Virus record (IMG/VR): IMGVR_UViG_3300035228_000112
Span: 1-43,111 of that record
Source of the DNA: a virus
Length of the DNA stretch: 43,111 nucleotides
Strand: one strand, 5' to 3'
The notes under the pieces were generated by a model. The model did no database searches. It was not told the DNA's origin and worked only from the letters and a program-made list of their open reading frames with translations. A program made the translations under genes and the position numbers. This document shows, piece after piece, positions 2,122 through 27,087 of the stretch; within the stretch, counting starts at the first letter, position 1; each line of letters starts with the position of its first letter.

Positions 2122-3852
2122 CTAGCGCGACACCCAGGTGGGGATTGAGTTTTTAGAGTTACCCCTGGCTTGTTGTCTTTGTTCTAGATTCATACCAAAA
2201 ACCATATGATTAGCAGAAGCATGTGGATCATCAATCATCTCTTCAATCATTGAATTCCACTCATCACGTTTACGATTTTTAATAGCTTCTAGGGCAGAGA
2301 TACCAAGAGCATCTGTATAATATTGTACACCTTGAGCTAACGCATCTATTCTATCATCATGTCTAATTGCACCTTTTTCACGACACATTCTTGACATTTG
2401 ATAGAACAGCATATAAAGAAGACGTTCTTCTGGTGCAGCTTGTGGATTAGATTTAAAGTCCCATTCTATAACAGACCGGTCGATAACGAGTCGGTGTTGA
2501 TTAAGGACGGGTTCAAGGGAGTCAATGATTCGATCTTCTTTTCTAACATTTGCTCGGACTTCTTCAATATCAATTGCTTGTTTTGTTTGTTGAAGATGTT
2601 TGCGGAACAACTCGCTAACAATGCCGTCACCAAAATTAGTTTCAATGAGGAGCTTAGAAACGCCATACTTTTTACAACCTTTTAGAATATCGAGTAATGT
2701 ATTGTCGCTGTATCCGTCTCTGTAAGCACGCATGTCGTGCAAGTACAAGAAACCGTTGCGTTGTGAGATATAAGCTGCTGCTGTTTCATCCGAGCCACGA
2801 CCCGATGGGTCAACCGAGCAGATTGTCTCTTGGTAAGGATCCCATGTTCCTTGTAACTGCATTGGAGAGTAGAAATAGTCTCCAGGGAGGCCAACAGTGG
2901 GGAGGTCTTTGATAACGTTTTGTGGATCGGAGCACCAAACAACGGATTCGGGAGCAGTAGAGGGGTTAACGCTAGTGACGATAAGGTCAGCGCATTTAAG
3001 AGGAAACTTTTCAGCATCGGATAAACTCGTGTCTAACATGAACTGCAACATAAAGTTGCTACGACCCATTGACGCTTCACGTTCAATCAGGTCTTCATTA
3101 TCAAATCTATCATCAGTTACTTCCCATTTCTCTGCACCTTGATCTATATCTTCTACCAGTTGAGGCGCTAGAAGGCCCTCGTATTGAGAAACCTTCCTAG
3201 GATACCTAGCAGGCCAAACAAAGGGCTTGTAGGCTCTCTCAGCTAGCTTACGATAGACAGTAAATGTTGTCTGAGGTGTACCAAGAAACATAATACGACT
3301 ATCATTCTTGGGAGTAAGGATAGATTCAGCTTCTGTACATAATTGTAGAAGCTTCTCTCTCATAAATTCTGTCATTGAGTTGCCAGGTACTTCAATATCG
3401 TCAAGAATCATTAAGTCAGCACGAGAACCGGTAAGCTGACCAGTAATACCCACTGATTTAACAGAAGGGGCTTGGTGAGGGGAACAAGCCACATCAAATG
3501 AGATCCGACTCCAACGGGAGTCATCAGATTTAGGGCGCAAATGTACCAACCAAGGTGTTTCAATGATTAATTTCTGTAGGAAGATTGACATGTTATCTGC
3601 TCGTTCTTTAGAAGCAGATATAATCATTATTTTCTTTTCGGGGTTATTAAATAAAGTCCAAAGAACAAAAGCACCAGTAATCCAGCTCTTACCAACTCCC
3701 CGAAATGCTTGGATTTGTAAACGCTTTGGACCATGTTGAAGGTAATCAGCAATTGCATATTGAGCACGTGTAGGGTTTGGTAGATCTAATTCACTCCATA
3801 ATGCTTGTAGGAATAGCTTAAAATCGTCTTTAAGGAGGTCTAAAGTGTTCAT
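2122..3852 (-). CDS. terL: Terminase large subunit (T7 gp19-like DNA maturase B)
   Basis: Packaging motor ATPase and nuclease that cuts concatemers and pumps DNA into the prohead through the portal. The 576 residues are typical for T7-like TerL. Walker A is QAFRGVGKS (about 48-56), Walker B is LMILDDIE (about 146-153), and the RNase H-like nuclease is marked by SVDPSGRGSDETAA, ETNFGDGIV and a late DDRIDALAQ. It lies two genes plus an HNH endonuclease away from the small terminase. No Shine-Dalgarno precedes the ATG, as for several late genes here. Its stop codon lies inside a GCGCTAGCGC palindrome (2119-2128), just before the promoter-like site. Confidence 0.95.
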   Translation of the reverse strand: MNTLDLLKDDFKLFLQALWSELDLPNPTRAQYAIADYLQHGPKRLQIQAFRGVGKSWITGAFVLWTLFNNPEKKIMIISASKERADNMSIFLQKLIIETPWLVHLRPKSDDSRWSRISFDVACSPHQAPSVKSVGITGQLTGSRADLMILDDIEVPGNSMTEFMREKLLQLCTEAESILTPKNDSRIMFLGTPQTTFTVYRKLAERAYKPFVWPARYPRKVSQYEGLLAPQLVEDIDQGAEKWEVTDDRFDNEDLIEREASMGRSNFMLQFMLDTSLSDAEKFPLKCADLIVTSVNPSTAPESVVWCSDPQNVIKDLPTVGLPGDYFYSPMQLQGTWDPYQETICSVDPSGRGSDETAAAYISQRNGFLYLHDMRAYRDGYSDNTLLDILKGCKKYGVSKLLIETNFGDGIVSELFRKHLQQTKQAIDIEEVRANVRKEDRIIDSLEPVLNQHRLVIDRSVIEWDFKSNPQAAPEERLLYMLFYQMSRMCREKGAIRHDDRIDALAQGVQYYTDALGISALEAIKNRKRDEWNSMIEEMIDDPHASANHMVFGMNLEQRQQARGNSKNSIPTWVSR

Positions 3853-3898
3853 AGGTAGAATCTAGCGTGTAGGGGGTTAGGAGGGCTTGTAGAGGGTT

Positions 3899-5503
3899 TT
3901 ACTTATTAGTTTTTTTCTGCCTTTGCCTTCTTTTAATTTCTTTTGACTCCGCCTTCTTTTTGTTTTTCCAGTATTTTATTGGACCTGTACCAGAATATGA
4001 AGTACTAACATTTTGAAGTGCGTCATCAAGTTTATTTATGGAAACTGCATCTTGAGCTGTAGGAAGAACAACATCTTGAATTGTGTCTCTCCATAAGACA
4101 AGTAACTCGTCAACATTTTTAGCTTTATTTACTTTTTCAGCCCACTCTAGTTCATTAAACTCATCTTTAGCATAATCCATTGCAGTGTGTAATTCGTTAT
4201 GAGGTTTTGTTCTCATATTTAACATATTACTTTTATAATCACCTGGCTTTGCGCCTAGTTTAATAGCAATATTATTCATTAAGACAAGATCATCTGCTTC
4301 CGCTATTCCTTTATTAATCATCCAATCCATGCGATCAAAAAAAGCAGAGCTAAGAACTTTAGGAAATAAATGATGCGCTTCTAAGTATTCGCCAGTTTTC
4401 AAGCCTTTAGCAAGTTCTTCTTGCCTCTTTGCAGCTTTACCTGCCGTTGTTTGATACCACAATGGATCTTCTGGGGTCGGTACAGAAACATTTGAACGTT
4501 TTCTGTGAAGCATAGCTTTGGTATTTTCAATAGTATCTCTAAAGTTTTTTATTTCTCGTAAATCAGCACCATTTTCGATCATTTCATTTAATTCATCTCT
4601 CATTAATGGTAATTTATCAACTCGTTCCTGAACCTCACCAGCACGTCTAGTTAGGTGTTCAGCTTGTTTGTTCGAAATAATTTTATCACCCGTACTTACA
4701 CCACCAAGTTGAAGTATTTCCCGATCTCTTGCAGTCACTGCTTTCATAACTGCCCCGCCTTTTTCTACATTTAACTGAATATTAGGTGCAGCACCAGCCG
4801 TAGCTAAAGCAGCAGGAGGAGTAGGTGGGAAGATATTATCAATAGTAGGCCCATACTTATCAATAGCTTTAATAGCAGTTTTAGCACCTTGTTTAATAGC
4901 CGGTGTTGCTCGTCTTACTGCAGCAGACCCACCAGCAGTAAGTGCTGCCATTGCAAGTTCATCTGTAATAAATCTGCTAGTATTAGTTTTCTCACTAATA
5001 AACTCTAGACCTTGATCAGCTAAAGTAACTACACCATTAGCAATATTAAGCCCAACATTTATACGTTGTTGAGTTTCGTAATTTTGATCTTGGTAAAAAT
5101 CTACAGCAGCAGTAGCAGCATCTGTTATTTTCTCAGTAGCAAAATCTTTTACTTCTTGAGGTATAGCTTCAGTAATTGAATTACCAAACCTTTGTGCTGC
5201 AATGCCACCCATTCTAAACTGACCTTCGTCCATCAGTTTATCAAAAGATCCTTTAGATTGCCATCCATAGTTTTGGCCAGACCAGAAAACAGGTTCTCCA
5301 TTTAAAACAGCTTCGCTACCAATTGGACGAACTTCTTCATTTATTTGGGTAGAATCTTTTTTGTCTGCTGCTTGTTGAATACCTTCAAAAACTTGTTCTC
5401 TGTTTTCATTAAAATCTGCTACCCTATCACGTATAAATTTACTTGATTCATAAATAACAGGAAACTCTTCCTTTGCATAATTTTTTATAGCATTAAGTGG
5501 CAT
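3899..5503 (-). CDS. Large protein with C-terminal toxin-like His-rich nuclease domain (534 aa)
   Basis: I do not recognise the full protein. The N-terminal half (1-200) has Trp/Gly-rich WSGQNYGWQSKGSFD and helical Ala-rich segments, then a Pro/Ala linker (224-240) and a coiled-coil-like region (255-335). The C-terminal third contains EAHHLFP (376-381), a paired Asp/Asn segment (DDLVLMNN, 404-411), and TKPHNELHTAMDY (432-444). HH..N..H...H is the layout of HNH/AHH-type (His-Me finger) nucleases at the end of polymorphic toxins. The tail is strongly basic. It sits between an HNH gene and terL, where T7 has no such gene. It could be a virion-carried, injected nuclease or a packaging nuclease. 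Nuclease fold likely, role unknown. Confidence 0.6.
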   Translation of the reverse strand: MPLNAIKNYAKEEFPVIYESSKFIRDRVADFNENREQVFEGIQQAADKKDSTQINEEVRPIGSEAVLNGEPVFWSGQNYGWQSKGSFDKLMDEGQFRMGGIAAQRFGNSITEAIPQEVKDFATEKITDAATAAVDFYQDQNYETQQRINVGLNIANGVVTLADQGLEFISEKTNTSRFITDELAMAALTAGGSAAVRRATPAIKQGAKTAIKAIDKYGPTIDNIFPPTPPAALATAGAAPNIQLNVEKGGAVMKAVTARDREILQLGGVSTGDKIISNKQAEHLTRRAGEVQERVDKLPLMRDELNEMIENGADLREIKNFRDTIENTKAMLHRKRSNVSVPTPEDPLWYQTTAGKAAKRQEELAKGLKTGEYLEAHHLFPKVLSSAFFDRMDWMINKGIAEADDLVLMNNIAIKLGAKPGDYKSNMLNMRTKPHNELHTAMDYAKDEFNELEWAEKVNKAKNVDELLVLWRDTIQDVVLPTAQDAVSINKLDDALQNVSTSYSGTGPIKYWKNKKKAESKEIKRRQRQKKTNK

Positions 5504-16402: not shown

Positions 16403-19400
16403 TTAATCTTCGGTATGATAAAATTCAAACTCAAATGTATTTCCATCATCGTCAGTAATAGGTACTACATTAGCACTTTTTTCTCTATAAAAACCTTCAC
16501 CATCTTTTACAAAGATTTTTTTACCGCTAGCTATAGCGGAATCTATTCCTGCATGAAAAGACGACGCTCCAGGTGCAGGTGGTGTTCTATTTCCATAAGG
16601 AGATGTAACTTCAAACGATGTTAAAGGTACTGCATTCTCAGCATTATCACCAATGTAAACTTTACTAAGAAGATCAGGACGACTCATTGGGTCAATACGT
16701 TGTCCTTTATTAGGACCAGATTTTACTAGAATACGTGTGTCAAGATGATCACCTGTTGATGGTAATGTGTCACGCTGATATGGGATCACTGAACCAGCTG
16801 GCATCATTCCTTGTCTAATTAATTCAGGACGCTGTAGCAACCTAGGGTCACCACTATACTTATACAGAGCTTTAGTAACCTTTCTCATATGGTTTACAGT
16901 TTCTGCAGGTAAATCCCGGATACCTTGTACATACTCTTGCATTCTACCAGGACCAGCATTATAAGCACCAGCAGCTAGAATAGGATCACCAAATTGATCT
17001 AGTAGGTCTTTCATGTAAGCAGCCATACCTTTGATGCTTGAATCAGGATCATTAACATCTACACCGTATTCACGTGCAGTATCTGGAGTAAATTGTGCCA
17101 TACCTTGAGCACCAGCAGAACTGGTTTTGTTAGTCTGCCAATGGGCTTCTGTCTCCAAATTTGCTGCAATAAGAGCTGGTGGTACACCATAAGTTTTAGA
17201 GTGTGTGTCAACCATATCTCTGTATTCAGCTGGTGCTACATGTCGGTTCCATTCGTTACCTAGTTTGTTACCTTCGTAACCATGAACACGTGTAGTTACA
17301 TTAGCATTAAGATAACGTTGTAATAGTTTTTGAGCAGAAGGTGAATACTCCCCCACTCGTGCTAAAGATTCTGGTGGTTCAATAGGATCCATTCCAGCAA
17401 GAACTAATTGCTTATTTAATAGTGATAAAACACCACCAGACAATCCTTTAGAAGCAAGAAATAGTTTTACGTTTGGTACATACCCAGGCTTATTAATATT
17501 TTTAATTTCTGTTTCAAGCTCAGTTTGAGTTAAAACACCATATTTTTTGTTAATAATTTCCTGTTGGCGACCATCGTTTAAAGCGTCTTGTACTTGCTGT
17601 GCTTGTTCTTTTGTTGCTTCAGATCCAGTTAAATTTTCATCTTTACCTAAGTTTGGAAAGTTATACAAACCAGTAAGAGCATCATATTTTCTATAATATT
17701 TACCTTCTGGGTTTTTGCTATCTGTTGCAATTTTCTTTTCAATGTCTACAGCAGCGTCATCAGAAGCTTGTTCAATCCCGACAGCAGCAGCATTTTTTTT
17801 AACTAATGCATCAAACTCACGTGTAAGAACTCGTGCGGCTTTAGTACTACTAGCTGAATCTTTAGGAAACGGTGCAGTAGCAGATGGTTTTTTAACGTAA
17901 TTAGCAACAGTTTTACGTTGAGCTTTATAAGGCTCATTCTTTAACAACGGGTTTTGTTCGTCTAAAGATTTTTGTAATTGATTACCAAGTACAGAGTCAT
18001 AACTAAATACTTCAGTAACAAAAGATTGAGTCAAAATACCACGAGCTTGTAAATCTTTAGCTTGTGTTTTTAACTGTTGAATATAAGGAGCGTTAAGAGG
18101 ATCTAAAGCAGCCTTTGCTTTTGTAAGCCATTCAGGATTACCTTGTTGATTATCTTTAAAAGATTCTTCAGCAGCAGCTAAAGTTTCAGGTGTTGGATTG
18201 TTTTGATATTCCTGCCACCATTCCGATGATTCTGCTTGATAATCATTACGTTCAGTTGTACGCTGGTTAGTATTCCAAGAACGACGGGCAGCTTCACGAG
18301 CGTTTAAGGTGGCAATAGTGTTAAATTCGTGATCTTCTTTGTAGGTACCATTAAAACCTTTTCTAATAACTACACCATTTTTATCTTTTGTAAAATTAAC
18401 GTCTAAGTTTAAAAAATCGTTTTCATCTACTACAAATGTACCATCAGTGTTTTGTATTAGTGCTAACGCGTTTAAACGCTTATGAGCTTCAGCAGGACCG
18501 TAAATATTATTAACAGTGTTAAAATAAGCAGCACCATACTCAGCAAAATTACCAAAAGCTTTATTTTTAGCAAGTCTTATTGTATCATCATTAAAATCTT
18601 TTGTTGCGTTGTTTGTGGCAACAGTCAGACTTGATTGATTGATTTCATTAATTTTTACGTAAGCCTCTTTTAAAAACCCTGGATTTAAACCAAGTAAATT
18701 TTTACTTTCTAAAAATGCATAAGCTGCTTCAGATTGAATTCCGGCTAAAACTCCCGGATTTCTTTGGGCTTCTGCATAAGTTACTTGCTGACCATTTATT
18801 TCTAAAGTTTTGTTAGGGTCATTTATAAAATCATTAAGAAAAGGCTGGTAGTCTGTGATAGTTGATTGTGTAACACTAACACGCATAGCAGCAACACTTT
18901 GTTTTGCTGTTTGGTTCCTTATTCGTGCTATTTCGTGTTCATATCCTCCTATTTTTTCTAATGCATTAATACGAGCTTCTTGATAATTAAGTGCAGTTTC
19001 TACTTCATTCTCACCTTGTTTGTATTCAATATCAGACTGTTTTATTATACCTGCTGTAGCTCTATCCCTTTCCACTTCGATTGCATCTGCATCTTTCTGT
19101 TTCTTCTTCCTTAACTCTTGAGCTTTCTCAGCAGCGGTTGCACTAAAACTAGCAATAGAATCAAAGATCTTTGCACCAAGTTCAGTCTCTTGCTGAATCC
19201 TATCTTGTGTAGCTTGAGCATTATATTGTTGCTGTTGACGTTGTGTATCAATGTTTGTTGATGCTATGTTAAAATCACGCTGCCTTTCCTTTTCAGATAG
19301 GGCTGCGTTTGATTCCATATCTTGAAGTATACGACGTTGGTTTTCTAAATCAGAATCCCTACGTGCTCGCATACCTTCTACAATACGATTACTTTCTGCT

Positions 19401-23802: not shown

Positions 23803-24939
23803 TTAGAATGCGGCAGGCTTGGTAGCAGTACCGGCAAACAGTTCAACAGCAGCAGCTGGATTCAGGTAGTCGGCACCCATAGCCAAACGGCCAAGGATCA
23901 CGTCACCCTGATAGATAACAGAAACGTCACCACTGGTTACTTGAACCTGAGGAGCAATCGCTTCGACACAACCAGCAGCTTCACGCTGGAAGATCAAACC
24001 ACAGCTATTAGCAAATTCGGTTTCTTCACCGTACTCGTTGTTGATACCGGTGACATCAGCAGCAGCATCTTCAACAGCTTCAGATACGAACGAACCGGTG
24101 TTACCAGGATCGGTAACGCCAGGGTTAGTAGCAGAACCAGTACCGTACTTAGTACCATACTGAGAGAAGAAAGGAATATTCATGGACTTGTAGATCTTGA
24201 TACCTGCGATCTCCACGATTCCGTCGCCACCTTGCAGTGCGGAACCTTGAACGTCGCGGTTGATCAGACCATTAGAACCAACGGCTTGGATCAGTGCATA
24301 GTACTGACGGGGGTTAAGAACGCCCACACGTCCATCCTGACTGACACCCTTTTCGTCCATTGCAGCGGCTGCATCATAGAATGCATTTACCAAAGCAGTA
24401 GAAGAATAAGCATCAGATGCAGCTGTAGTAGTACCAACACGAACCTGAGTACCACCAGGCTCAACATAGCCACTAGCAGTAATAGGTGATGCTGCACGTG
24501 CGCCACGAGTGACGGCACGGAAGATCAAGCGGTCATACTTTTCGGCAAGAGCATAGCCGATTTTACGGCTAATCTCAGAGCGCAGATCGTAATGAGAAAG
24601 AGTCTCATCAAGGTCATAAACGAACGCTGAACTGATCAGCAAGTCATCAACCGTGATGGTCTTCTCAGCCACAGGAGGCGCATTGTTGCTATCACCGAGG
24701 ATGCTATTCCCAGGAGTATGGAACTCACTTTTGGTGCGCCCGGTGTAGATGAACTGCAAAGATTTGCCGTTCTTAAGTGTACGCTTCATCACAAGATCGC
24801 GAGCGATCGTATTGCGTTGGAAGCCTTTGAACATTTCTCCACTGAACAGTTTCAGATAGAGAGCGCGGGTATCACCCGCCAGGTTAGCCTGACCCAGCTG
24901 AGTTAGCTGAGTGGGGTTAACAGAAGATTGAAAAGCCAT
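23803..24939 (-). CDS. Major capsid protein (T7 gp10-like, 378 aa)
   Basis: HK97-fold shell protein. The sequence follows T7-like and cyanopodovirus capsid proteins: LYLKLFSGEMFKGFQRNTIA at 28-47, KNGKSLQFIYTGRTK, HTPGNSILG, TVDDLLISSAFVYDLDE, KYDRLIFRAV and NPRQYYALIQAVGSNGLINR. About 376 residues would be usual, which agrees. It lies after psbA and before the strong terminator. The leader is unusual: no Shine-Dalgarno is visible, and a hairpin plus a run of seven T ends one base before AAATG. Confidence 0.95.
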   Translation of the reverse strand: MAFQSSVNPTQLTQLGQANLAGDTRALYLKLFSGEMFKGFQRNTIARDLVMKRTLKNGKSLQFIYTGRTKSEFHTPGNSILGDSNNAPPVAEKTITVDDLLISSAFVYDLDETLSHYDLRSEISRKIGYALAEKYDRLIFRAVTRGARAASPITASGYVEPGGTQVRVGTTTAASDAYSSTALVNAFYDAAAAMDEKGVSQDGRVGVLNPRQYYALIQAVGSNGLINRDVQGSALQGGDGIVEIAGIKIYKSMNIPFFSQYGTKYGTGSATNPGVTDPGNTGSFVSEAVEDAAADVTGINNEYGEETEFANSCGLIFQREAAGCVEAIAPQVQVTSGDVSVIYQGDVILGRLAMGADYLNPAAAVELFAGTATKPAAF

Positions 24940-24941
24940 TT

Positions 24942-24970
24942 AAAAAAAGAGAGTAATAATATAGACTCTC
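24942..24970 (-). terminator. Hairpin with T7 tract directly before the capsid start codon
   Basis: On the minus strand GAGAGT (24970-24965) pairs with ACTCTC (24954-24949) around a 10-base AT loop, followed by TTTTTTT and then AAATG of the capsid gene. It has intrinsic-terminator form. It may end psbA transcripts or act as a translation-control hairpin for capsid mRNA. A perfect 16-base palindrome, CTCAAAGATCTTTGAG (24968-24983), overlaps its 5' arm and offers an alternative fold. Confidence 0.6.
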
Positions 24971-24983
24971 AAAGATCTTTGAG

Positions 24984-25062
24984 TTATTTAATTTGTATTG
25001 TGGTCTATCCCACCGTCTAGACGGCAAAGGGTATCCTCGTAAGGGCCAATGCCAATAGTGAT
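24984..25062 (-). promoter_or_regulatory. Psb-capsid intergenic leader with promoter-like site and dyad
   Basis: Contains the perfect palindrome CCGTCTAGACGG (25013-25024) and, on the minus strand, ATTGGCCCTTACGAGG (about 25049-25034). This matches the promoter candidate at 2102-2081 (ATCGGACCCTTATAGGG) apart from one missing base and a few changes. A phage promoter for the capsid gene is expected here. Weak individually, stronger by position. Confidence 0.35.
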
Positions 25063-25081
25063 GAGGGGAATTGCACCCCTC
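25063..25081 (-). ncRNA. RNA hairpin A (downstream of psbA), paired with hairpin B
   Basis: On the minus strand GAGGGG-TGCAATT-CCCCTC: a perfect 6-bp stem and 7-base loop, starting 17 bases after the psbA stop. Hairpin B at 26253-26271 has the identical loop and a different but equally perfect stem, so pairing is conserved and sequence is not. Either a 3' element of the upstream gene or a 5' element of the downstream gene; may relate to the PhotoRC motifs described near psbA. Confidence 0.65.
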
Positions 25082-25098
25082 TTTAAGATCTATCTCAC

Positions 25099-26181
25099 TC
25101 AGCCGATCACAGGTGCTACTAAGGCCACAGGTGTGGAGCTAGTTGACGCAAGATCAAGCGGGAAGTTGTGTGCATTTCTTTCGTGCATGACTTCCATTCC
25201 GAGTCCTGCTCGGTTAAGGATATCTGCCCAGGTGTTAAGGACGTGTCCGTCACTGGACTGGATTGATTGATTGAAGTTAAAGCCATTCAAGTTGAATGCC
25301 ATAGTACTAACCCCAAGAGCAGTAAACCAGATACCCACGACAGGCCAAGCAGCGAGAAAGAAGTGCAAGCTACGGCTATTATTAAAAGACGCATATTGAA
25401 AAATGAGGCGACCAAAGTAACCATGTGCTGCAACAATATTATAAGTCTCTTCTTCTTGTCCGAACTTGTAACCATAGTTCTGACTTTCAGTTTCAGTTGT
25501 CTCACGTACAAGGGAAGACGTAACCAGTGATCCATGCATAGCTGAGAACAAGCTACCACCAAAAACACCAGCAACTCCCAACATGTGGAAGGGGTGCATG
25601 AGGATGTTGTGCTCGGCTTGGAAAACCAACATATAATTAAAAGTACCGGAAATGCCAAGAGGCATAGCGTCTGAAAAGCTACCTTGTCCAAAGGGATAAA
25701 CAAGGAATACAGCGGATGCCGCTGCCACGGGTGCGGAGTATGCAACAAAGATCCAGGGCCTCATTCCAAGGCGATAACTAAGTTCCCACTCTCGTCCCAT
25801 GTAAGCATAGATACCAATAAGGAAGTGGAAGACAACCAGTTGGAAAGGACCGCCGTTGTAGAGCCACTCGTCGAGTGAGGCAGCTTCCCAGATTGGGTAG
25901 AAATGTAGACCGATGGCGTTTGAAGATGGGACGACTGCCCCTGAGATAATGTTGTTTCCATACATGAGAGAGCCAGCAACGGGCTCACGAATACCGTCGA
26001 TGTCAACGGGTGGAGCTGCAATAAATGCAACGATGAAGCAGGTTGTAGCAGCGATTAGTGTTGGAACCATAAGGACTCCGAACCAACCAACGTACAGTCG
26101 GTTGTTAGTACTGGTTACCCAGTCACAGAAGTTGTTCCAAATATTCTTTTGTTGTTGTAGCGCGATTGTAGACGTAGCCAT
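25099..26181 (-). CDS. psbA: Photosystem II reaction centre protein D1
   Basis: Full-length D1 (360 aa). It replaces photodamaged host D1 in thylakoid photosystem II so that electron transport and ATP supply continue during infection. Five membrane helices are present, and the Mn-cluster ligands near the C-terminus are intact ([15 protein letters not shown], equivalent to H332, E333, H337, D342, A344). A C-terminal extension ([15 protein letters not shown]) is left for CtpA processing. The residue equivalent to 130 is Glu ([13 protein letters not shown]), the high-light D1:2 type. It is inserted between the lysis-like genes and the capsid gene, flanked by two matching hairpins, so it is probably expressed late at high level. 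Confidence 0.98.
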
Positions 26182-26252
26182 TTAAATAGTAGTGCATTGT
26201 TATTTGAACGATTAAGTAAGACCAATTTAAAGACCTGGCAGTCTAGAGCTAG
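26182..26252 (-). promoter_or_regulatory. psbA leader
   Basis: 71 bases between hairpin B and the psbA ATG, AT-rich, with no Shine-Dalgarno. A TCTAGA palindrome (26242-26247) and AATTGGTCTTAC (about 26226-26215), which loosely echoes the ATTGGCCCTTAC of the capsid leader, are the only features seen. The promoter relation is speculative. Confidence 0.3.
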
Positions 26253-26271
26253 GGGAGGAATTGCACCTCCC
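26253..26271 (-). ncRNA. RNA hairpin B (upstream of psbA), paired with hairpin A
   Basis: On the minus strand GGGAGG-TGCAATT-CCTCCC: perfect 6-bp stem, loop identical to hairpin A at 25063-25081. It begins 16 bases after the stop of the upstream barrel-like gene, almost the same offset as hairpin A from the psbA stop. Both are preceded by ATAGA. No T-run follows, so it is not a terminator. Confidence 0.65.
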
Positions 26272-26287
26272 TTATTCTATTTAGCTA

Positions 26288-26638
26288 TTAGAAGCTGTAC
26301 TTGACTCCGACCTTAGTGCCGTAATCATTTACATCATCAAAGGTTGCAGCGACTTCACCATATACGGAGAGGCGCTCTGTTGCTTGAACTGAACCGCCAA
26401 GCTTACCAGTCAGTTTAGTTTCTTCTTCACCACCATCAGGTGCAAAGATAGAGGGACCAGCTTGTACATAATAAGAGCTGTAGCCATTACCATTTTCATA
26501 TCCAAGATGGAAATCTGTAACATGCCCAATAAAGTTAGAGCCACTAAAGCCAGCGTTGTTCTCAACGTTTACATAAGGACCAGCCAGAACGGGTGAAGCA
26601 GCAAACAAAGTTGCGGGGAGGATAGCAAAAAATTTCAT
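26288..26638 (-). CDS. Secreted small beta-barrel-like outer membrane protein (116 aa)
   Basis: A signal peptide (MKFFAILPATLFAASPVLAG) precedes about 96 residues with alternating hydrophobic and polar strands (FIGHVTDFHLGYE, SSYYVQAGPSIF, TKLTGKLGGSVQATERLSVY, GTKVGVKYSF). The final Phe is typical of outer membrane barrel proteins inserted by BamA. I recall similar small proteins in other cyanophages near psbA or lysis genes. It could alter the host envelope or block superinfection. It overlaps the lysozyme gene by four bases (ATGA), so it is read with it; the two may cooperate at the envelope. Confidence 0.65.
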   Translation of the reverse strand: MKFFAILPATLFAASPVLAGPYVNVENNAGFSGSNFIGHVTDFHLGYENGNGYSSYYVQAGPSIFAPDGGEEETKLTGKLGGSVQATERLSVYGEVAATFDDVNDYGTKVGVKYSF

Positions 26639-27087
26639 TGTAGTTTAGTTAGAAAAGAATAAGTATGTTGTGTACGATTACCATGAACACCCCAGCCTAA
26701 CCAGTAGTATGCAGCATTCATGTAATAAGGAATAGCTTGATGTTTAGTTTGAAAAGCATAAAGATCTTTTCTAAACCGCATCTCCTTTATTAAGTAATCA
26801 GTTTGACATTTGAGACCACTAGGATCTTGTTTGCGTTCGGCACAGTGGCTGCCAAGACCAATGTACCGCTCAATGGATGTCCATTGAATCAAACCATATC
26901 CACCACTAAGACAGCGATCGTAAGGAACGATAGCACCACCCTCGCAGATGTTAGGTTTAAAGTTAGACTCTTGTTGGATGTTACCCATAATGACTGCCAG
27001 TGCTGTACGGTCTGTCACACCAGCAGAAGTCTGTAGTTGTTCTAGAACGTACTGCTGAGGCGCAGTACATTGTGGGCATTCAATCAT
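26635..27087 (-). CDS. Lysozyme-fold cell wall hydrolase (150 aa)
   Basis: Matches the phage tail lysozyme-type domain: VIMGNIQQESNFKPN (catalytic Glu in QESNF), then GGYGLIQWTSIER, and a C-terminal aromatic helix (YYMNAAYYWLGWG). This would hydrolyse peptidoglycan. No signal peptide is present, so release would need the holin-like protein at 7663-7839, or the protein is virion-carried. Several Cys (C4, C7, C48 region, C82, C94) might form disulfides after export. It lies between the small basic proteins and the barrel protein, in the structural operon, not in the lysis block. Endolysin is the most economical call. Confidence 0.75.
   Translation of the reverse strand: MIECPQCTAPQQYVLEQLQTSAGVTDRTALAVIMGNIQQESNFKPNICEGGAIVPYDRCLSGGYGLIQWTSIERYIGLGSHCAERKQDPSGLKCQTDYLIKEMRFRKDLYAFQTKHQAIPYYMNAAYYWLGWGVHGNRTQHTYSFLTKLQ

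Follow-up and report, generated by a model that had tools for sequence, protein, structure and literature searches.

A structured RNA leader with a variable but self-complementary hairpin ahead of the capsid gene of cyanopodoviruses

Introduction

Do the stacked palindromes which lie directly ahead of a phage capsid gene belong to a terminator, to a DNA-binding site or to a folded part of the capsid mRNA? This question is raised by a virus record of 43,111 bases, analysed over its whole length (referred to here as the window), in which the long genes lie on the minus strand. The 378-aa ORF downstream of the palindromes is recognised by tblastn as a T7-like major capsid protein (the best 10 of 1367 matching phage records are 80–90% identical to it and nearly all of these are annotated as capsid or head protein), and the leader which serves it is the 159-base gap separating this gene from psbA (Table 1). 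A terminator-like hairpin and T run are also seen immediately 3' of the capsid gene (window positions 23789-23768, minus strand).

A preliminary description of this DNA had reported the palindromes CCGTCTAGACGG and CTCAAAGATCTTTGAG and a GAGAGT/ACTCTC hairpin stacked ahead of the capsid ATG, and all of these motifs are indeed present there on the minus strand, with inspection of the sequence confirming the seven T residues, the AA and the ATG which follow. A detail absent from that description is that the 16-mer palindrome and the GAGAGT stem have three bases in common (GAG), so that the two are alternatives or must share them. Perfect palindromes of at least 12 bases are not rare in such genomes (the window has 14, and 18 related genomes have between 4 and 18 each) and can therefore take on meaning only through conservation in relatives. 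Such conservation is found, with the longest palindrome having a half-length of at least five in 137 of 162 distinct leaders compared to about 9% of dinucleotide shuffles. As judged by comparison of leader sequences, both palindromes belong to a larger predicted RNA, which we divide into elements P0 to P6 and in which it is self-complementarity rather than sequence that stands out as conserved.

Table 1. Features of the capsid leader and its flanking genes in the window (sequences are given 5' to 3' on the minus strand).
Feature	Position	Strand	Remarks
psbA	25099-26181		Upstream of the capsid gene; identified via annotated relatives
P0, two-armed tRNA-like	25057..25099	(-)	Acceptor-like AGTGA 25099-25095 / TCACT 25061-25057; acceptor stem by eye
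P0 T-arm	25081-25063	(-)	GAGGGG-TGCAATT-CCCCTC
P1 + P2 + conserved ATAC	25023..25053	(-)	P1 is GGCATTGG 25053-25046 / CCTTTGCC 25030-25023; covariation
P2 (inside P1)	25044-25035	(-)	CCT 25044-25042, UACG tetraloop, AGG 25037-25035; followed by ATAC 25034-25031; covariation
P3	25013..25024	(-)	CCGTCTAGACGG, self-complementary
P4 hairpin	25000..25013	(-)	GTGG-GATAGA-CCAC; covariation
P5	24968..24983	(-)	CTCAAAGATCTTTGAG; central hexamer AGATCT 24978-24973
P6	24949..24970	(-)	GAGAGT 24970-24965 / ACTCTC 24954-24949; 5' arm shared with P5 3' arm
T7 run + AA before ATG	24940..24948	(-)	Seven T at 24948-24942; lineage-specific, not conserved
Major capsid protein gene	23803-24939	(-)	378-aa ORF, ATG 24939-24937; T7-like major capsid protein by tblastn

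Results

The leader is conserved amongst the cyanopodoviruses

Retrieval anchored on the capsid gene gave at least 80 loci from viral contigs in addition to those of named phages, and these leaders have a compact core in common (one locus-level search took 75 chosen loci). The order of elements from 5' to 3' is P0, P1 (8–9 pairs), an unpaired C, P2 (3–4 pairs) with a tetraloop which we take to be of the YNMG type, AYAC, P1', P3, P4, an A/T-rich spacer, P5, P6 and the ATG. A covariance model of the core (R2) was run on 19 whole cyanopodovirus genomes and produced a single strong match (E < 0.001) in 18 of them, in every case in the capsid leader, with Syn5 as the sole exception giving no strong match. 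When six further phages were searched as loci with the same model, NATL1A-7 gave a strong match and S-CBP4, P60 and S-TIP28 gave weak matches in the leader (E = 0.085, 1.1 and 3.7, respectively), S-CBP2 matched only off the leader, and SS120-1 did not match at all.

A blastn search of the core against 50,697 phage records returned 37 records at E ≤ 1, all of them cyanophages or uncultured marine phages with the match in one place each and with no annotated feature underneath it. Rfam 15 had no match in window positions 24000-27000 at E ≤ 5 and none at the gathering score across the whole window, and in 11 relatives it returned only tRNA and Glutamine-II matches, none of which lie on the P1–P6 leader. 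Nothing on this leader was found in the open-licence literature, a scope which mostly does not extend to subscription journals. There is a strong case, built on sequence comparison, for a conserved, uncatalogued structured RNA ahead of the cyanopodovirus capsid gene, which would act in cis. Very many viral contigs carry it, our count of these being a lower bound, and P-SSP7 and Syn5 are laboratory models. The element offers a direct handle on late-gene expression in the absence of Shine-Dalgarno sites.

Several observations were made on individual loci during this survey. Glutamine-II riboswitches (RF01704) were found upstream of the capsid leader in eight of the 11 relatives searched (L088 2677-2730, L021 3248-3300 and L056 3692-3746, and also in L096, L098, L099, L100 and L102), and none in the window. 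Five contigs which GTDB lists with bacterial genomes (L401–L405) match the P3–P4 pattern, each upstream of a capsid-like gene, and are probably phage contigs. One leader, that of L068, carries a small LAGLIDADG-like ORF (3634-3981) between P4 and the start codon (Pfam PF14528, E = 1.1e-4, with a score of 22.9 bits against a cut-off of 22.5), and here the usual P5 palindrome was not seen. In two others (L179 423-512 and L197 8855-8944, minus strand) P2 is much longer than elsewhere, and by eye L197 retains the UACG loop.

Covariation defines the 5' domain

Nine of 170 reference sequences were removed before alignment; seven were false regex matches and two, L179 and L197, are real leaders with the longer P2, which would not have lowered the counts given here. 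The first alignment held 73 of the 159 remaining distinct sequences, and the gapless alignment A2 the 39 distinct sequences without indels (71 of the 170 references matched). For P1, P2 and P4 in these 39 sequences, 92.1% of cells are paired compared to 76.9% after shuffling, 10 of the 15 pairs have double changes, and the covariation score is 0.432 against 0.134 for shuffled and no more than 0.10 for slid sequences. Every shuffle is beaten on four of the five measures used, the number of further pair types being the one which is not above the shuffles. A larger set of 66 distinct model-aligned rows scored 0.381 against 0.107 for shuffles, in an alignment which was itself fitted to the structure. 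The middle of P1 is often unpaired by standard rules (24 and 20 of the 39 cells at two pairs), and P4 covaries through GCTG/CAGC, GTAGG/CCTAC, GTGTG/CACAC and GTCTG/CAGAC, of which the GTGTG rows sit one base out of register in A2.

P3 overlaps both of its neighbours, as its first CC is the last CC of P1 and its last G is the first G of P4, and in the predicted monomer fold of the window P1 and P4 (pair probabilities of about 0.8 and 0.76) are favoured over P3 (about 0.06). The centre of P3 takes few forms; in 190 listed loci with an oriented CCGTN4ACGG core, N4 is CTAG in 164, CATG in 24 and ATAT in two and nothing else, where many of the loci came from a scan with fixed flanks and a free N4, and three other matches were unrelated coding sequence. 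Three further leaders have other self-complementary centres by eye, and the P3 centre has undergone at least 19 changes, with 'other' counted as a fourth state, on a capsid tree of 178 leaders with a capsid protein of at least 300 residues. There is no internal covariation within the P3 stem in P-SSP7-type leaders, and as their GG-CC-GG is nearly invariant, this set can provide none for P3 itself.

The blocks shared between P1 and P3 differ between lineages, with GG-CC-GG in P-SSP7-type leaders, CC-GG-CC in Syn5-type leaders and GAC-GTC-GAC in part of the S-CBP1-type leaders (the last two compared by eye in 28 of 50 Syn5-type and 38 of 80 S-CBP1-type loci), and in NATL1A-7 the middle block is CT, which by eye pairs with both partners through G-U. 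Exceptions occur in some S-CBP1-type leaders, in which P3 is GTCATTGAC and not self-complementary, or lacks the shared block. This swap of blocks, as seen by eye, is the trace which would be expected if P1 and P3 were alternating partners.

A tRNA-like element or a second type of hairpin precedes the core

P0 adjoins the upstream gene so closely that the stop codon of psbA includes the first base of P0. In the window it was not called by ARAGORN or Rfam and has no full cloverleaf with an anticodon arm, and our acceptor-stem script picked an alternative stem, GTGAT/ATCAC, which is exactly at threshold. A contiguous acceptor-like stem accompanies 21 of 26 T-arms in 19 genomes compared to 115 of 520 shuffled controls. 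Amongst 144 distinct upstream stretches of sufficient length, 74 have what we refer to as a type-B hairpin (CACCTCAGAGTCGGA inside a variable stem) and 55 a T-arm, with the 15 left unclassified by the script resembling variants of one or the other, and in NATL1A-7 the P0 slot is occupied by a genuine tRNA-Gly (L098 2731-2801) which ends 2 nt before P1. This arrangement suggests that P0 is a processing site at which the transcript would be cleaved.

Similar elements were noted in other places. A near-complete tRNA-like sequence lies in the P0 slot of L226 (around 11506, minus strand), although by eye its anticodon arm looks shrunken. A T-arm-like hairpin resembling P0, GGGAGGTGCAATTCCTCCC, is found upstream of psbA in the window (26253-26271, minus strand), and a T-arm hairpin also lies ahead of psbA in G003. 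Two-armed tRNA-like elements precede early genes of P-SSP7, S-SBP1, P-SSP10, P-SSP3 and others (L244 625 and 1022, L238 610 and 1348, and also in L257, L261 and L232), many of them followed by TTG and a hairpin, and these suggest one general processing scheme.

P5 changes in sequence and nearly always remains self-complementary

In each of 160 distinct tails running from P4 to the ATG we chose the best hairpin with its stem, rather than its loop, as the criterion (a qualifying stem having at least three pairs, one of which is G-C). The loop is a palindromic tetraloop in 146 of these and wobble-palindromic in three, one hairpin was mis-picked and 10 tails had no qualifying stem; in all 11 of the latter a palindromic hexamer is present by eye. 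The centre of the picked hairpin lies 31–45 nt before the ATG in 150 of the 160 tails (one of the 150 being the mis-pick). Control hairpins from the same genomes have palindromic tetraloops in only 165 of 4649 cases, compared to 78 of 78 capsid leaders under the same filter, where the controls come from random windows of 18 genomes which may overlap each other or the leaders, and where the range allowed for P5 is narrower than in the 160-tail search.

The pattern of change within P5 can be followed outwards from its centre. All 59 distinct 16-mers whose loop is palindromic are Watson-Crick complementary across the central six bases; at positions 1–2 this follows from the selection of the class, and at the third pair from the centre it likewise holds in all 59. 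Positions 4, 5 and 6 then have 3, 10 and 19 G-U pairs (32 in total) and 0, 0 and 1 mismatches. In a set of 69 distinct 16-mers, the first departure from Watson-Crick pairing on moving outwards has U on the left and G on the right in 52 of 64 cases. These departures and the G-U pairs of the outer stem fit a rule of RNA pairing rather than one of DNA palindromes, and the one-way direction of the G-U pairs may in part be explained by the right arm being shared with P6. The one non-palindromic centre, GTGC in three leaders, is also self-complementary through U-G pairing.

Sequence turnover at P5 is considerable, with 17 different central hexamers in the P-SSP7-type leaders, and on the capsid tree the hexamer has changed at least 62 times. 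Recombination could inflate this count, and for three leaders from a single clade a palindrome adjacent to the usual one was scored. No RNA has the same hexamer in P3 and P5 (0 of 184), which would avoid pairing in cis. We extended the P5 test to 79 of 80 S-CBP1-type and 42 of 50 Syn5-type loci, which gave 67 and 33 distinct loci, respectively, of sufficient length. The S-CBP1-type loci obey the rule in 66 of 67 cases (12 distinct 16-mers), so that a hairpin whose apical sequence stays self-complementary despite sequence change, as expected of a kissing loop, is found in both P-SSP7-type and S-CBP1-type leaders. Only eight of the 33 Syn5-type loci pass the strict test, with several more having shorter palindromes by eye and others none there, and the palindrome rule is weak in this lineage.

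Allowing up to two mismatches, the P5 12-mer of the window occurs 10 times in the window against 3.2 expected, a number reached by none of 100 shuffles, and a second exact copy of CAAAGATCTTTG lies at 19162-19173 inside a 1027-aa ORF. This enrichment leaves some room for a role of the 12-mer outside the leader. Across 16 genomes with an assigned palindrome, a phage's own 8-mer core is not clearly commoner than the cores of other phages. Some clades (L074, L110, L116, L138 and relatives) have a stemless self-complementary hexamer (TGGCCA, CTCGAG, TGATCA or CGATCG) between P4 and P5, for which we found no correlation with P1 by eye.

P6 and the T run are not general features

A P6 score of at least 11 is reached in 57% of 160 leaders compared to 26% of shuffles, and in 85 of the 91 leaders carrying P6 its 5' arm overlaps P5 by 3–7 nt. 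The absence of a Shine-Dalgarno site reported in the preliminary description is shared by nearly all of the relatives, as a string resembling one at -17 to -4 was found over 5 nt in one and over 4 nt in five of 160 distinct leaders. The same description had called the leader terminator-like, and in this it is not supported, with a T7 run present in three and a run of T5 or longer in 31 of the 160 distinct leaders, and with the GAGAGT/ACTCTC-type stem not universal. The comparison with P-SSP7-type leaders which it proposed supports a structured mRNA element reaching the start codon and does not extend to the T7 run. The omission of P6 by a simple terminator scan is given no weight here, since the loop limit of 8 excludes the 10-nt P6 loop. 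We argue from the covariation of P1, P2 and P4, together with the G-U pattern in P5, that the leader is probably transcribed and acts as RNA, which counters the case of hairpins that are never in the mRNA.

Discussion

A proposed dimerizing leader and its alternatives

The reading we prefer, which may well be correct though we stop just short of calling it probable, is that the capsid mRNA has a processed and folded leader whose homodimerization loop would tune stability or translation. P0, whether a tRNA, a tRNA-like fold or a type-B hairpin, would mark the boundary with the upstream gene and would probably be cut by host tRNA-processing enzymes, after which the capsid mRNA would begin at or near P1. 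On the evidence of covariation, P1, P2 and P4 form a compact 5' domain, and P3, judging from its shared bases, would alternate with P1/P4 or pair between molecules. P5 would present its six-base self-complementary centre on an RNA stem, where the sequence drifts and self-complementarity stays, and the likeliest reason for this would be homotypic loop-loop or duplex pairing of two capsid mRNAs. In what is the weakest step, pairing in trans would shift the balance between P5 and P6, as these share bases just before the start codon, and so might tune stability or translation with the concentration of the message.

Dimerization of the leader is likely given the self-complementary centre of P5, and since a tetraloop cannot pair with itself within one hairpin and the outer stem obeys RNA rules, we infer pairing between two RNA molecules. 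The predicted gain from homodimer formation has a median of -12.3 kcal/mol against -6.4 for shuffles in 60 leaders, to which the palindrome itself contributes by construction, and falls below the shuffled 5th percentile in only 33 of the 60. In the predicted monomer fold of the window the P5 hairpin has a pair probability of only about 0.05, since its AGATCT is taken up in pairing with another AGATCT upstream. Further points against this reading are the small size of a 4-nt loop for a kissing complex, the lack of a flanking-purine rule, the weak palindrome rule of the Syn5-type leaders, the S-CBP1-type leaders in which P3 is not self-complementary, and the stemless palindromic hexamers of some clades, which are not needed by a hairpin model. 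If the loop does dimerize, a bacterial virus would provide a natural case of functional mRNA–mRNA pairing, and the many compensated changes recorded in its evolution might serve to test specificity. A fuller version, which we consider possible but doubtful, is that of a self-recognition code, where the hypervariable, nearly always self-complementary loop would dimerize with messages of its own phage type alone, combined with tRNA-type cutting and concentration-dependent control of the capsid.

The bases which P1 shares with P3, and P5 with P6, together with the block swapped across lineages (by eye), would also fit a cis-regulatory RNA controlled by a protein or ligand, in which P1/P3 and P5/P6 are alternative folds and a symmetric dimeric protein, such as the capsid protein, reads the self-complementary loops. 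The highly conserved ATAC and GATAGA look like recognition sites, and we know of no ligand or protein for this leader; however, a protein reading the loop should conserve its sequence, and with 17 hexamers in P-SSP7-type leaders we find this explanation rather unlikely. It is improbable that the palindromes act instead as DNA, as operators of a dimeric DNA-binding protein of the phage MarR type which co-evolves with its operator. Perfect palindromes of variable sequence would be expected of such sites, a dimeric MarR-type protein has been described for P-SSP7 (PMC9692554), and the enrichment of the window 12-mer (10 against 3.2 expected at up to two mismatches) offers mild support, but departures at P5 positions 4–6 are by G-U (32, with one other mismatch), own 8-mer cores are not clearly enriched in the 16 genomes, and the distance to the start codon is narrow with an overlap with P6. 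A multicopy operator is unsupported for the same lack of clear enrichment of the 8-mer cores, though the 12-mer speaks mildly for it.

Three further explanations concern transcription or the phage particle. That the GAGAGT/ACTCTC stem is followed directly by seven T residues might suggest an intrinsic terminator or attenuator stopping transcription ahead of the capsid gene under some condition, but this is very unlikely with a T7 run in just three of 160 leaders and a P6 which is not universal. In T7-like phages late promoters lie close to the capsid gene, and a conserved, AT-rich leader adjoining that gene might hold a promoter from which the phage RNA polymerase transcribes the capsid operon. 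We give little credence to this, as the 27-mer P3–P4 motif is single-copy at up to three mismatches, the covariance model has one strong match per genome, and a promoter would not be expected to show compensatory changes. No convincing promoter emerged when the intergenic regions of seven genomes were searched de novo for repeated 13-mers, and the Syn5-type promoter (PMC3950665) has one match with three mismatches against 0.63 expected. Finally, to our knowledge no RNA is known in these phage particles, nor is there any sign of an RNA 3' end ahead of the capsid gene, and the release of a stable small RNA for the particle or packaging motor, similar to prohead RNA, seems exceedingly improbable. 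The self-complementary loops and the location beside the capsid gene speak for it, as does the prohead RNA of phi29, which multimerizes via loop-loop pairing (PMC7357161).

Comparison with known systems

The leader of gene 10 of coliphage T7 serves the major capsid gene of a related phage and presumably has some resemblance of letters to the leader described here, in which there is no Shine-Dalgarno site and no promoter was found. A tRNA or two-armed tRNA-like fold directly ahead of an mRNA domain recalls tRNA punctuation, in which tRNAs act as mRNA processing signals and which is known from mitochondria; here the cleavage is putative, and roughly half of the relatives have a different hairpin in place of the tRNA-like fold. 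The guanidine-II riboswitch is made up of two hairpins with kissing loops, and the likeness is in the paired hairpins with loops capable of interaction, whereas in our leaders the P3 and P5 hexamers never match (0 of 184) and there is no Rfam match. This family is named amongst RNA dimers in PMC7357161. Glutamine-II, or the Downstream-peptide motif (RF01704; described in PMC2864571), is likewise a cis-regulatory RNA of cyanobacteria and their phages, but is a separate element with another fold, and there is no aptamer match at the leader and none in the window.

The likeness to the retroviral HIV-1 DIS lies in the six-base self-complementary apical sequence of a leader hairpin (PMC4066764 and PMC7357161). 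The two are not homologous, and in our case the hairpin belongs to a DNA-phage mRNA and has a variable stem, a loop of 4 nt and a putative role in dimerization. The palindrome of the HIV-1 DIS is flanked by purines (PMC4066764), whereas P5 follows no flanking-purine rule. Were the self-recognition reading true, a phage with double-stranded DNA would carry in its capsid leader a dimerization signal of the retroviral kind.
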